This document shows, one piece after another, positions 11,297 to 17,609 of a DNA stretch of 20,212 nucleotides. Where the stretch lies: the IMG/VR virus record IMGVR_UViG_3300042549_004147, positions 1 to 20,212 of that record; one strand, written 5' to 3'. Below the pieces are notes generated by a model that was not told the origin of the DNA, searched no databases, and saw nothing but the letters and a program-made list of their open reading frames with translations. The position numbers and the translations under genes are program-made. This stretch comes from a virus. Each line of letters starts with the position of its first letter. Position 1 is the first letter of the stretch.

Positions 11297-13480
11297 TTAA
11301 AAAGGAACTTCATCATTAATTTTCTCGTCAAATTCAGGTTTTACAAATAATTCAATACCCATCTTAACTATTCCTTTAATCCTGTATGATTTATATTCAA
11401 GCTTATTTTTTACAAAAATATCTTTTACATCGTATTTACTCACATTGATAGCTGTGTTTAAATTTAAGCTATTTAAAATGTCGCCCTGATTCATTATGCG
11501 CCTTTCGGTGTAAACATCGTTTAAATCAATCGAAAACCTATTAAAAAACAATTCCTCTACTGGCATCACTTCTATATTATTATTTGTGTTTTTTGCTAAA
11601 TAATCAATATCCTCGCTTGTGTATATTTTCCAGTCATAATTTTCGCGCCATAATTTAAAGGCTTCACGCCATAAACTATCCGTATCTAATAAAATCATTT
11701 TATTATAATCAATGGAAGTTACATTTAAGGGCAAAATACGCCTGTTTCCCGTTACATCTTTTAAAACTGACACATCGTTACTCGTTCCGCATAATGAAGC
11801 CTTACGTTTCATTTTTGAATAAAAAGCTGAATACGGTAAACGTATGTCAATTTGATTTGCATCGGCTATCTTTTTAAAATCTTTTACATCTTTTGTGGCT
11901 AATCCACCAAATTCATCATCCAGAACAATCAATCCTTTTACTAAATTATAAATAGAGTCTTTATCCTTGCTATCTATTTTATGCTCAATCAGGTATTTTT
12001 GTAGTTCTTTTGGTAGTAAGTTTCTAAAAAAAGAAGTTTTTCCAGTACCTTGTTGGATTCCACATAATACCAAAGTAAGAGGGGATACTTTTGTTTCGTG
12101 TAATGGGCTACACCAATTATGAACGCAACCAACAATCCATTTTTTAAACGCCCATCTATTATATTCGTTATTTGGTTGGATGCAATCAATGTATTTATCA
12201 ATTATCCCGTTTTCGAATTCCTTAATTTTAAAAAATTCATTTAAAGGATTAAAAGTTGGAGTAGCTTCGGAATTGATCATATCCCTAACATCTGACTTGT
12301 TTACATTAAAAGTCAAGCAGTTTTTAGCTGAAAAATAAATAGTATTTAGTTTTATGTCGTCAAGCAGTATTCCATTTAAAAATATTTCATTTGTTATTGA
12401 ATCTCTAACAGGATTAAAATTTTCAATAATAAAGTTTTTCAGCTGATTTACTTCGCTTTCTTCATTTTCTATTCCTGCTGAATAATCAAATTTTGATTCT
12501 ATTAATTCTTTAATTAGATTTTCATCTGGATTATCAATTTTTAAAACTTCAATAATATGCTTTTTAACACTTTCTATTGTTGGAGTTCCTTGCGCTTTTT
12601 GTGCAGCTACGGTTGTAATTGTTTTCTTTGTTTTGTCTGAATAAATCTCAATTCCTTCTTGTTTTACAAAGTGATAGAAAGTAGCTATTGTAACATTTCC
12701 AACTTTACAAAATTGCTTATAATGTTTTTCAATATTCTTTGCATCGTATTTAGAACCATTTTGACAAATTGCTTTAAAATAGTCTAATCCTGCTGCACCA
12801 AATTCTGAACCAATGGCAAATCCAATTTGAACGTATCTGGAATAATCATCCTGACAAAGGTCAATATTTGAAATTTTATCTAAAACAGCTGTAAAATCAT
12901 CCTTTACAAAAATGAATTTTTCCTTTTCTTTTGGTTTATCAATTTTAGATTTTGCAATAAACTTTTTCGCATTTTCATTATAAAATAAATAAGGGTCATA
13001 AGAATAATAACGAAGTCTGTTTTTATTCTTACAACTTGGATCAATTGTTAAATTAAAATTATCCCAATAGTATTGACCTAAATCATTAAATGATTCTAAA
13101 AATTTAGAAGTGTTTATTTTTACAAAAACGCAAACTCCATCGCCACCGAATGAACGATGCGAAATAAAAGTATGTTTATCATTGTTTATTTTTGTGATTG
13201 TTTCAATATCAACATTCTCATCAATATCTAAAACTATCAATCCATTTAACTCTTTTATATTGCTTTCAACTTTTGAACCTTGATTCATTATTGCGGAACC
13301 AGTAATGCATGGAGTTAGACTTTTAAACTCATTATACTTTTGTTTATCCGATTTAACGGATCGCGCGCTTAAAATAACATCCTGAAATCTTCCATTTTTA
13401 ATTGCATAGATATAATCTTTTAAATCAATGTCTATTTTATTCGTGTCTTTTACCGTTTTGTAACTGCTGAATTGTATCAT
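11297..13480 (-). CDS. Primase-helicase, VirE family
   Basis: A 727-residue replication protein with three parts. Residues 1-170 are a BT4734/VirE N-terminal-like primase domain with NGLIVLDIDE (79-88) and SHRSFGGDGVCVFVK (107-121), the strands that carry catalytic acids in this group. Residues about 195-275 are PriCT-2-like (DDYSRYVQIGFAIGSEFG ... FYHFVKQEG). From about 440 a VirE superfamily 3-type helicase follows: Walker A GIQQGTGKTS (474-483), Walker B VLDDEF (519-524), sensor LCGTSND (564-569) and TGNRRILP (577-584). It should both prime and unwind at the fork. It overlaps the upstream helicase gene by 44 bases, and its stop codon abuts the iteron region. Confidence 0.88.
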   Translation of the reverse strand: MIQFSSYKTVKDTNKIDIDLKDYIYAIKNGRFQDVILSARSVKSDKQKYNEFKSLTPCITGSAIMNQGSKVESNIKELNGLIVLDIDENVDIETITKINNDKHTFISHRSFGGDGVCVFVKINTSKFLESFNDLGQYYWDNFNLTIDPSCKNKNRLRYYSYDPYLFYNENAKKFIAKSKIDKPKEKEKFIFVKDDFTAVLDKISNIDLCQDDYSRYVQIGFAIGSEFGAAGLDYFKAICQNGSKYDAKNIEKHYKQFCKVGNVTIATFYHFVKQEGIEIYSDKTKKTITTVAAQKAQGTPTIESVKKHIIEVLKIDNPDENLIKELIESKFDYSAGIENEESEVNQLKNFIIENFNPVRDSITNEIFLNGILLDDIKLNTIYFSAKNCLTFNVNKSDVRDMINSEATPTFNPLNEFFKIKEFENGIIDKYIDCIQPNNEYNRWAFKKWIVGCVHNWCSPLHETKVSPLTLVLCGIQQGTGKTSFFRNLLPKELQKYLIEHKIDSKDKDSIYNLVKGLIVLDDEFGGLATKDVKDFKKIADANQIDIRLPYSAFYSKMKRKASLCGTSNDVSVLKDVTGNRRILPLNVTSIDYNKMILLDTDSLWREAFKLWRENYDWKIYTSEDIDYLAKNTNNNIEVMPVEELFFNRFSIDLNDVYTERRIMNQGDILNSLNLNTAINVSKYDVKDIFVKNKLEYKSYRIKGIVKMGIELFVKPEFDEKINDEVPF

Positions 13481-14993
13481 ATATTATTTTTGTTTTTAAA
13501 GTTTCGTATTTAACGTGTTTGCTATCTTTTAGCATTGATGTAATTGTCTTTGAATATGCTGGGAATAAATATTTTCTAAATCTTTGGTTTAATTGAATAT
13601 TTGGATTGTGCAAATGAAATTCAATTTTTTCTATTTTAGATAAAAAATATATCCATTTTTCTCGCAATACTTTTAAAGTTTCATATTTTGTTGAACCTTT
13701 ATTAATAAAATAAATTAAATCTAATGTTGGTGGTATTGTATTATTTTTTTTCCCTTGAATTTCAAAAAGTTTTTGTTCTTTCGGAATATCTTCTTCTACT
13801 TCTATAATATCAGGAACGTTCCCGCAATTAGGGCAGCAACTTTCTTTAATCTCATAAGTAAATCCACATTCCTCACATTCTGTAATATCTAAAAGTTTAT
13901 CTTTTATTTTCTTATCTGAAAATATTTTTTTCCAATCTCGATTAAAACTAAATGCTTGGTGTTCTTTATTATTATTACCGCCATCAATTAAAAGAAAAAA
14001 AGGTTTTTCTATTTTATTCGTTGGTCTTGCTCCACGCCCTGCAATCTGAACCCACAAAGATAATGATTTTGTAGCACGGGCCATAATAATACATTCTACA
14101 TCGCACACATCAAAGCCTTTTGTGAAACATCCAGTATTTATTAAAATAGCATCTCTTTCATTTTTAAACCATTCAATAATACTATCTCTTTCGTTTGGTG
14201 TGTTATTTACGCTGTCATAAGTTTTAATATTTTTATCTTTAAATAACTCGGCATAAATAGCATTTGTTTCCGTTGCCGAAGTAAATATCATTGTTTTTTT
14301 TCCTTCACAAAGTTTGTCGTATGTTTTGCGAAGTGCTTTTTTATAATCAGGATGTTGAAATACTTCTTTTAAACTTGCAGCCGTAAATTCTCCGCTTGCA
14401 TCAGTTTTTAAAGGTGTACTATCAAATTCAATGTATTCTGTTTTTTCAGGTACTAAATAACTATTTTGCATTAACCATTCAATTGGTTTCCCGCATACAA
14501 TATCATCATATACATCGCTCATTGTTTCTTGCGCGCTTATATTTTCATCAATAGAGTACCTTTTTAAACGCGCAGGAGTAGCAGTAAATCCAATAATTTT
14601 GCAATCAGTTAGGTAAGTAAATAATTTATTAAATTCCCAAATATGGCATTCATCAATAATGCAATAATCAAATTTAGGTAATTTTTCGCGTCTATTGTAA
14701 ACGGATTTAATCATACCTACTAATATTTTATTATCAGGTATTTTTTTTGCTCCAGCTAAAATAGATCCGATGTCTGCACCTTGCTTTTTAAATGTATCAA
14801 TAGTTTGATTGACTAAATCAATACTGTCAACGAGTATTAAAGTTTTGGCATTTAATTGCGTTACTAATTCCGTAAAAATTACTGTTTTTCCACCACCAGT
14901 AGAAAGCTGAACACAAAGTTTTTCAGTAATTGGAATTTTTTGAAGGATTTCATCTAACAACTCTTGTTGATAGGGTCTTAAAGTTTTTTTCAT
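13437..14993 (-). CDS. SF2 DEAD/DEAH-type helicase with zinc knuckle
   Basis: A 518-residue helicase of the type III restriction/UvsW-like SF2 group. It has LRPYQQELL at the start (Q-like motif), Walker A STGGGKT (31-37), motif II DECH (114-117), motif III FTATP (136-140), a C-terminal RecA-like domain from about 225 (KKTMIFTSAT, NTGCFTKGFDV) and motif VI QIAGRGARP (316-324). A four-Cys zinc knuckle follows (CEEC 373-376, CCPNC 386-390), then a helical tail of about 120 residues. It probably remodels forks or recombination intermediates with the primase-helicase encoded next. It is the first gene after a separate promoter and a structured leader, whose U-run ends only eight bases before the ATG. 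Confidence 0.9.
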   Translation of the reverse strand: MKKTLRPYQQELLDEILQKIPITEKLCVQLSTGGGKTVIFTELVTQLNAKTLILVDSIDLVNQTIDTFKKQGADIGSILAGAKKIPDNKILVGMIKSVYNRREKLPKFDYCIIDECHIWEFNKLFTYLTDCKIIGFTATPARLKRYSIDENISAQETMSDVYDDIVCGKPIEWLMQNSYLVPEKTEYIEFDSTPLKTDASGEFTAASLKEVFQHPDYKKALRKTYDKLCEGKKTMIFTSATETNAIYAELFKDKNIKTYDSVNNTPNERDSIIEWFKNERDAILINTGCFTKGFDVCDVECIIMARATKSLSLWVQIAGRGARPTNKIEKPFFLLIDGGNNNKEHQAFSFNRDWKKIFSDKKIKDKLLDITECEECGFTYEIKESCCPNCGNVPDIIEVEEDIPKEQKLFEIQGKKNNTIPPTLDLIYFINKGSTKYETLKVLREKWIYFLSKIEKIEFHLHNPNIQLNQRFRKYLFPAYSKTITSMLKDSKHVKYETLKTKIIYDTIQQLQNGKRHE

Positions 14994-15005
14994 TTAATAC
15001 AAAAA

Positions 15006-15074
15006 CCCGCAAATCAAAAGGTGGAAGACTTTATCATTGCGGGAATTTAATAATATTGTTAATTAGGCTTCCAC
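15006..15074 (-). ncRNA. Leader RNA with H-type pseudoknot before the helicase gene
   Basis: On the minus strand four strands interleave: GTGGAAG (15074-15068), CCCGCAA (15043-15037), CTTCCAC (15027-15021) and TTGCGGG (15012-15006). The first pairs with the third and the second with the fourth, each 7 bp without mismatch, which is the topology of an H-type pseudoknot (connectors of 24, 9 and 8 bases). The last strand is followed by TTTTT, so the second stem alone also resembles an intrinsic terminator, and the helicase ATG lies 13 bases beyond it. A perfect -7 element at 15085-15092 would start RNA a few bases before the first strand. A cis-regulatory leader (riboswitch, protein-binding leader or attenuator) or a short sRNA are both possible. 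I know no named family that fits. Confidence 0.5.
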
Positions 15075-15084
15075 TCCTATGGCA

Positions 15085-15092
15085 CAAATATA
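15085..15092 (-). promoter_or_regulatory. Promoter -7 element for the replication genes
   Basis: TATATTTG on the minus strand is a full match to TAnnTTTG. It lies just past the methyltransferase terminator and directly before the pseudoknot leader. The -33 position has only a T-rich sequence and no TTTG at 19 bases. It lacks the GTAAT/ATTAC operator seen in the two other promoters. Expected start is near 15079. Confidence 0.6.
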
Positions 15093-16180: not shown

Positions 16181-17548
16181 TTAAAATTTAGGTTTAATAA
16201 TTGATTTGTTAAATTCTTTTGTTTTGTGTTCAAATGAACGGTTTACGTTTTCTGTTAGATTTCTATGTAATTGTATTGCTTTTTGTGTTTTTTGTTCTAA
16301 GGCTTCTAAAACCCTTGTTTGCCCGTCAGAAATAACCATATCAATAGTAACGTCTTTTGTTTGTCCAAACCTCCAAAAACGTCTTATAGCTTGGTAATAT
16401 TGTTCATAACTCCACGTTGGAAAAAATACTGAATGATTGCAATGCTGCCAGTTTAAACCCATAGAGGTCATTTTTGCCTTTGTAATTAGTCTTTCAATTT
16501 CTCCATTTGCAAAAGCTAAAAGTATTTCTTCTTTTTTATCAATACTTTGAGATCCTATAATTTCAACAGCATTTTTATCTGAACTTTTTAAAATACTACT
16601 TTCGTTATTAGTATTACACCAATATACCGAAGTTTTATTTTTTGCTAATTCAATAGCTTTTTCACATCTTTTTTCTTCCGTTTGCTTTTGTTCATAACGA
16701 ATTTCATTAAAATTTTTAGCTACTATATTAAACATTTGTAATTGACCATCTATAGAAATTTGACTATCATTTGTAACTATATGTTTATTAATTATCAATT
16801 CAGGTAAATTATAACGATCATTTGAAAAACCTAAGTCGCTAGGCATCTTTGCCATTATAGACCATTGATTAACCCAAGCAAAAAAGTCTTTTTCTGCGTG
16901 TGGTTTTAAGTAAAACTTTTCTCCAATATTTCTATTAGTTGAATCAATTGCATTATTATTTTGTTTAAAAAACTTCCCTAACATATCCATATACCCCATA
17001 TACCCCAACGCCTCCGAACTCGTACCTAATTCTATAAAGTCGTTAGGTGATGGTGTAGCCGTACTTAAAAATCTATAAGGTATTTTCTTAACAAAGCTTG
17101 TTACTTCTTGTTTGATTTTACCGTCAAAGTTTTTTAAAATACTACTTTCATCTAAAATAACTCCTTCAAAATCATTCTCATTAAAATAGTGTAATCTTTC
17201 ATAATTACATACAACTATTTTTTTAGTGTGCTTGCCATCTTTTGAGTATTCAATATCGTCAATACCTAACTTTTCAGCTTCTAAAATAAATTGAAACGCA
17301 ACCGCTAAAGGAGTTAATATTAATACCTTTTTATTGGTATGGTTTACTATGTTTTTAGCTAAAGATAATTGTACTAAAGTCTTACCCAATCCAGTATCTA
17401 AAAAAACAGCGCTACGACCTTTTAAAGTAGCTTTTTCAATAACGTGTCTTTGAAAGTCAAAAGCAATATCAGGAATGTAATTTGCTTTAAACCCATAGTT
17501 GCCTATTGAGTGTCTTTTTGTTTCTAAAAATTCTTTGTAATCTGTCAT
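16181..17548 (-). CDS. SNF2-like SF2 helicase / DNA translocase
   Basis: A 455-residue SF2 ATPase starting MTDYKEFLETKRHSIGNYGF. Upstream in-frame codons to 17608 overlap the promoter and are rejected. Motifs: FDFQRHVIEKA (30-40, Q-like), Walker A DTGLGKT (51-57), motif Ia LTPLAV, motif II DESS (133-136), motif III STATPSPND (162-170), and in the second lobe TKAKMTSMGLNWQ (356-367) and motif VI QAIRRFWRFGQTKDV (386-400), typical of SNF2-type phage helicases. No nuclease or target domain is present. It may translocate on DNA to clear proteins or to assist the methyltransferase encoded 13 bases downstream. It is transcribed from the operator-bearing promoter at 17579-17609. Confidence 0.9.
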   Translation of the reverse strand: MTDYKEFLETKRHSIGNYGFKANYIPDIAFDFQRHVIEKATLKGRSAVFLDTGLGKTLVQLSLAKNIVNHTNKKVLILTPLAVAFQFILEAEKLGIDDIEYSKDGKHTKKIVVCNYERLHYFNENDFEGVILDESSILKNFDGKIKQEVTSFVKKIPYRFLSTATPSPNDFIELGTSSEALGYMGYMDMLGKFFKQNNNAIDSTNRNIGEKFYLKPHAEKDFFAWVNQWSIMAKMPSDLGFSNDRYNLPELIINKHIVTNDSQISIDGQLQMFNIVAKNFNEIRYEQKQTEEKRCEKAIELAKNKTSVYWCNTNNESSILKSSDKNAVEIIGSQSIDKKEEILLAFANGEIERLITKAKMTSMGLNWQHCNHSVFFPTWSYEQYYQAIRRFWRFGQTKDVTIDMVISDGQTRVLEALEQKTQKAIQLHRNLTENVNRSFEHKTKEFNKSIIKPKF

Positions 17549-17578
17549 TTTGTGTTTTGTTTTGTTATTAATATTTGT

Positions 17579-17609
17579 CAAAGATAGTAATACTTTATTA
17601 TTACGCAAA
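17579..17609 (-). promoter_or_regulatory. Bacteroidota-type promoter of the helicase-methyltransferase unit
   Basis: On the minus strand TTTG (17609-17606), a 19-base spacer and TATCTTTG (17586-17579) match the Bacteroidota consensus. Just downstream lies the A/C-rich leader ending AACAAAACACAAAATG at 17548. It follows a terminator directly and carries the GTAAT/ATTAC operator in the spacer. Confidence 0.82.
17587..17604. promoter_or_regulatory. Operator-like dyad in promoter spacer
   Basis: On the plus strand GTAATACTTTATTATTAC, with half-sites GTAAT and ATTAC around eight bases. It differs from the dyad at 10509-10526 at only two positions in the centre and has the same placement next to the -7 element. 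A common regulator is the simplest reading. Confidence 0.6.

Follow-up and report, generated by a model that had tools for sequence, protein, structure and literature searches.

In type III toxin-antitoxin systems (ToxIN) a promoter, a pseudoknotted RNA and a terminator precede the gene in that order, and the HK022 put RNA is a 5' RNA fold which is recognised by RNA polymerase. The guanidine-IV (mepA) riboswitch consists of a 5' hairpin P1, a flexible linker and a hairpin P2 leading into a poly-U terminator, together with a kissing loop, and kissing is described as opposing the complete terminator stem (PMC11611296). Among phage leaders, that of T4-type gene 32 has a single autoregulatory pseudoknot 67 nt before the start of the gene, and structures in the leaders of mobE and I-TevI sequester the ribosome-binding site or lower initiation (PMC3014915). 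The leader described here shares features with most of these systems.

Structure of the leader

The window is a virus record of 20,212 bases whose genes are encoded by the minus strand. On one side of the leader a DNA methyltransferase gene finishes in a terminator-like sequence, on the other begins an SF2 helicase gene (ResIII/DEAD and Helicase_C in Pfam, 13437–14993), and the leader is predicted to have its own transcription start between these two genes. The downstream gene had been called a replicative helicase in the initial annotation, but a replicative role is not supported for this SF2 (ResIII/DEAD) helicase, which is followed by a gene for a VapE-type primase. The four 7-base strands, the −7 box and the U-run before the helicase ATG which it had described were all located on the minus strand, at the positions given.

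On this strand, a −7 promoter element of the Bacteroidota type, recognised by its sequence (TATATTTG, 15085–15092), is followed by hairpin P1 (15064–15079), in which TAGG (15079–15076) pairs with CCTA (15067–15064) and the 8-nt loop contains the kissing strand S1a (GTGGAAG, 15068–15074). A 20-nt A/U-rich linker (15044–15063) leads to the terminator-like hairpin P2 (15006–15043; CCCGCAA at 15043–15037, TTGCGGG at 15012–15006), which continues via an internal loop of TGAT opposite TGAT (15036–15033 and 15016–15013) into the apical stem P3 (15017–15032; AAAG at 15032–15029, CTTT at 15020–15017). P3 closes a second 8-nt loop with the kissing strand S1b (CTTCCAC, 15021–15027), and a U-tract of five U residues (15001–15005) abuts the 3' side of P2, with the helicase ATG at 14993, 12 nt past P2.

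As S1a sits in the P1 loop and S1b in the P3 loop, the leader consists of a pair of hairpins connected through a 7-bp kissing loop and is not a bare H-type pseudoknot. The H-type pseudoknot originally proposed thus stands as far as its interleaved strands are concerned, but P1 and P3 had been missed. Minimum-energy folding of the whole leader without a pseudoknot gave P1, P2 and P3, a fold which was obtained from the complete leader only; when the RNA stops short of the 3' strand of P2, S1 is paired in the best fold (−9.5 kcal/mol).

Distribution of the element

A search by protein rather than RNA identified 21 viral loci encoding relatives of the helicase. The same layout with different sequences was present in 18 of the 20 loci of which the upstream region was read, a count that includes several near-duplicates and one locus (L001) from the phage of the window itself or a very close one, and it was absent upstream of the helicase in L010 and L021. 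With automatic scoring, the layout was found in 13/16 distinct helicase upstream regions (5.8% of shuffles) and upstream of 18/57 NUMOD4-HNH endonuclease genes (3.3% of shuffles). More copies with other kissing sequences were found before other genes, including several each in mumin6-1 and hattifnatt9-1, which are virulent Flavobacterium phages (PMC7077304). A first pattern scan (AGTGGANG...CNTCCACC) gave mostly chance matches and was abandoned. The element appears to be phage-specific, since none was found in 396 Flavobacteriales genomes in an exhaustive exact-pattern search for the commonest P1 form only. Covariance-model searches of approximately 395 genomes each, in which 11 candidates were scored per genome, were weak negatives, while the covariance-model search does find the element in viral records.

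Several variants were observed. Upstream of the helicase gene in L002, L007 and L012, AGTGGATG is located in the loop of the second hairpin and its complement in that of the first, the reverse of the window. Elements in a phage of 38% G+C (L030, at 5799 and 7150; also L097) have an extra linker hairpin and eight U residues past P2. Up to approximately 130 nt upstream of an HNH gene, L211 and L214 have a different interleaved arrangement without a U-tract (in L211 AATCGTAGC/GCTACGATT with CTACATT/AATGTAG), which is perhaps a distant relative of the element.

Covariation of the kissing strands and hairpins

Taken alone, the window is moderately unlikely to have arisen by chance, with 1.3% of shuffled leaders matching its score and 0.3% when the U-run is included. 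In an alignment of 14 leaders, 98.8% of cells were paired, and the covariation score was 0.754, compared with 0.216 for shuffled and at most 0.13 for slid strands. These leaders had mostly been chosen by a scanner which demands complementarity, and unbiased tests were therefore run. Searching with a covariance model that omitted the kissing helix retrieved additional leaders (L178, L182, L183/L184 and L223), and all of these had kissing complementarity at 7/7 positions, including one G·U pair. Scans of the whole viral collection with a pattern for a single half of the element gave 58 distinct 5' halves, 54 of them followed at the expected spacing by the exact complement and four apparently unrelated. 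Of 59 distinct 3' halves, 58 had the complement upstream, and the remaining one is cut by a contig end; swapped controls gave 0.1% and 0.000, respectively.

The covariance model without the kissing helix was then used to align 98 distinct leaders, in which S1a and S1b are paired in all cells (686/686), with double changes at all seven positions. A lack of compensatory changes in relatives had been named as what would refute the structure; such changes were found at every kissing position. Over all helices 99.7% of cells are paired: P1 reaches 99.2% with covariation in all four pairs, in agreement with its predicted fold, P2 covaries in 4/4 counted pairs, and P3 is paired in 100% of cells, with double changes in all three counted pairs. 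Corrected mutual information, calculated with no structure supplied, placed three kissing pairs (8-61, 11-58 and 10-59) within its four strongest couplings, and 11 of the top twelve couplings are pairs of the counted structure, the remaining one being an extension of P2. S1b is thus identified by the one-half scans, the alignment and mutual information alike. These comparative tests exclude a chance arrangement and establish a real RNA structure before the helicase gene, supporting the earlier proposal that the promoter is immediately followed by a structured leader RNA which ends in a terminator-like hairpin and a U-run.

Across all helices there were 22 G·U pairs versus no A·C pairs, which indicates that the element acts as RNA of the gene strand. 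The inverted repeats and the association with DNA endonuclease genes could also be read as a DNA-level feature, with paired protein-binding or homing-endonuclease target sites mimicking an RNA fold. However, the repeats drift in sequence yet stay complementary, they are phased to the promoter, and the strand-specific G·U pairs are those of the transcribed strand, so that this reading was rejected as nearly excluded and extremely improbable.

Conserved features outside the kissing helix

The sequence TAnnTTTG was found upstream of P1 in 89/98 distinct leaders (shuffled control 6.5%), and because it ends 4–6 nt before P1 in 88/98, we infer, with the start site taken from the promoter type, that P1 is at or near the 5' end of the RNA. 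Its consensus is GTAG-A-GTnGnnG-CTAC. This position, the fit of all helices into one compact fold and a use that is independent of the gene would suit P1, locked to P2 by kissing, as a shield of the 5' end against pyrophosphohydrolase and 5'-dependent RNases which stabilises phage mRNAs. We consider such protection unlikely, as it leaves both the terminator-like U-tract and the presence of the element at only some genes unexplained.

The linker is A/U-rich throughout the 98 leaders, with several near-invariant A and T positions, and none of the strongest couplings connect it to other parts of the leader. The internal loop of P2 is a tandem G·A with exchange between A·G and G·A. In L013, L015, L124, L180 and L185 it is instead (A/G)AGUA or AAGUA opposite GAAA, which resembles the sarcin-ricin (loop E) motif. 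In 50 leaders picked without regard to the U-tract, T occupies 84, 98, 100, 88 and 74% of its first five positions, respectively, and the 8 nt past P2 are 75% T in 26 leaders versus 32% before the other genes of mumin6-1, where start regions are A-rich and not U-rich. This indicates that the U-tract is part of the element.

Three positions of the kissing helix are highly variable and four hardly vary, and 20 versions were seen. Loci with two modelled copies had two different kissing versions in 11/11 cases, which as a sign of selection is suggestive only, because approximately 16% identity between copies is expected by chance (estimated from loop frequencies). The promoter and kissing hairpins could form a portable cassette that travels with homing endonucleases and is deployed repeatedly at phage early genes. 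The three hyper-variable positions would then act as an address for each copy, preventing cross-pairing within one phage, and a shared phage or host factor would read the fold and switch the gene set. We regard this scenario as quite unlikely.

Genes downstream of the element

The 82 distinct downstream proteins include 39 with a match to HNH_3 (33 match NUMOD4) and six with a match to GIY-YIG, with HNH and GIY-YIG homing endonucleases making up slightly more than half of the total. Further products are SF2 helicases, proteins of replication type, an AntA antirepressor and small proteins of unknown function. Autoregulation specific to the helicase, as had been suggested from the window, is rejected on the basis of this census, as dozens of unrelated genes have this leader. 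The second helicase-like gene of the window (16181–17608) has a plain promoter and a short A-rich leader without the element, whereas the kissing element is present at the homologous gene of hattifnatt9-1, which suggests that the element can be gained or lost.

At six loci (L284, L291, L301, L313, L327 and L330) a sequence of the ATAACG/ACAACG type directly follows the element, and the gene comes later with its own A-rich start. In L301 this sequence is in places an imperfect palindrome ending in TGTTATA. It might be attC-like, as in integrons, or a small mobile repeat.

The predominance of endonuclease genes would fit a translational damper, in which the folded leader near the AUG blocks or delays the 30S subunit, so that replication proteins and potentially harmful homing endonucleases appear late or in low amounts. 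mobE and I-TevI are examples of phage homing endonucleases with RNA structures which lower translation (PMC3014915), and the short distance from P2 to the ATG (the start codon is located 9–20 nt past P2 across the leaders) places the hairpin close to the ribosome footprint. Yet the start codon and the bases just 5' of it are free in the predicted fold, and the U-tract abutting P2 is left unexplained; translational damping is possible, if on the unlikely side.

A leaky attenuator as the favoured mechanism

Based on the sequence comparisons, the leader probably throttles the downstream genes. The mechanism which we tentatively favour, without considering it the probable one, is a leaky attenuator in which the P2 terminator hairpin is tuned by kissing, because P2 is terminator-like and kissing is best before P2 is complete, as in guanidine-IV. 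It builds on the observed structure, strand, promoter phasing, U-tract, conservation and gene contexts, while the exact start site, the occurrence of termination, and its modulation by kissing with the direction of this effect are inferred. Transcription would start at or a few bases from P1 and proceed through the A/U-rich linker into P2, with its tandem G·A internal loop and P3 cap, and the U-tract 9–20 nt before the start codon. The P1 and P3 loops would kiss via 7 bp, which can happen before the 3' strand of P2 exists, and would alter the speed or completeness of P2 closure. P2 with the U-tract would act as a moderate intrinsic terminator, so that P2 closure sets the read-through into early/DNA-metabolism genes and homing endonucleases. 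Candidate triggers are a protein, RNA polymerase speed, or none, in which case the leader would be a fixed dampener.

The leader does have the G+C-containing stem and immediate U-tract of an intrinsic terminator. On the d'Aubenton-Carafa scale, which was made for E. coli, only 2/26 P2/U-tract units scored above the threshold of zero, and two gene-end hairpins in the window scored +34 and +26; P2 would thus be a weak terminator by this measure. A mutually exclusive antiterminator helix, as expected of an attenuator, was not among the strongest covariation signals, and pairing of the linker with the U-tract, sought by mutual information as a candidate antiterminator, was likewise absent from the top signals. 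As all four helices can coexist and no competing helix is seen among these signals, a classical two-state switch is not indicated.

The fold could alternatively be read at the 5' end by RNA polymerase or a phage protein, as RNA-based antitermination or as the site for a phage RNA-binding protein coordinating a regulon. The element is promoter-proximal, occurs in many copies before unrelated genes, and keeps its tandem G·A internal loop and its linker conserved despite drift in the paired bases, but this reading requires both a putative partner and a putative long-range effect, and we find it quite unlikely. Together with translational damping and 5'-end protection, it is nevertheless a serious rival of the attenuator.

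Comparison with known systems

None of the Rfam 15 covariance models matched the window at gathering score, consistent with the initial annotation, which could name no RNA family; across 18 related loci only one tRNA was found, and weak matches at the leader were chance-like. The suggestion of a small-molecule riboswitch was not borne out: a riboswitch of known class is rejected by the lack of Rfam matches and the drifting loops, which vary while staying paired, and no ligand-like invariant core was seen. No description of the element was found in open-licence papers, and it appears to represent an RNA family which has not been filed before, whose covariation is unusually clean and which is located before many flavobacterial phage genes. 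Flavobacterial phage hosts make little use of Shine-Dalgarno-led initiation, and the element is a candidate answer to how phages of such bacteria regulate their early genes. It may also serve as a marker for homing endonuclease modules, and as a tractable model for loop-loop kissing control of transcription or translation, with carriers that include virulent isolates amenable to laboratory culture (Muminvirus, PMC7077304).

With regard to the systems described above, the leader has the ToxIN order of promoter, pseudoknotted RNA, terminator and gene, but is a single element and not a set of tandem repeats, and the downstream genes gave no Pfam match to a ToxN-like endoribonuclease family. Like that of gene 32, it is a structured phage leader 5' of a DNA-metabolism gene, but it carries a U-tract and serves dozens of unrelated genes, rather than being dedicated to one gene whose product binds it. 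With mobE and I-TevI it shares an RNA structure before homing endonuclease genes, whereas here two hairpins kiss and the start region is left free. In design it resembles guanidine-IV, with two kissing hairpins and a poly-U terminator in both. The phage leader differs from it in lacking an Rfam match, in loop sequences which may vary if complementary, in 7-bp kissing of nearly the whole loop, and in its position before phage DNA-metabolism genes. While membership in a named family is not supported, these comparisons suggest that it is, by design, a leader of the kissing-loop type.
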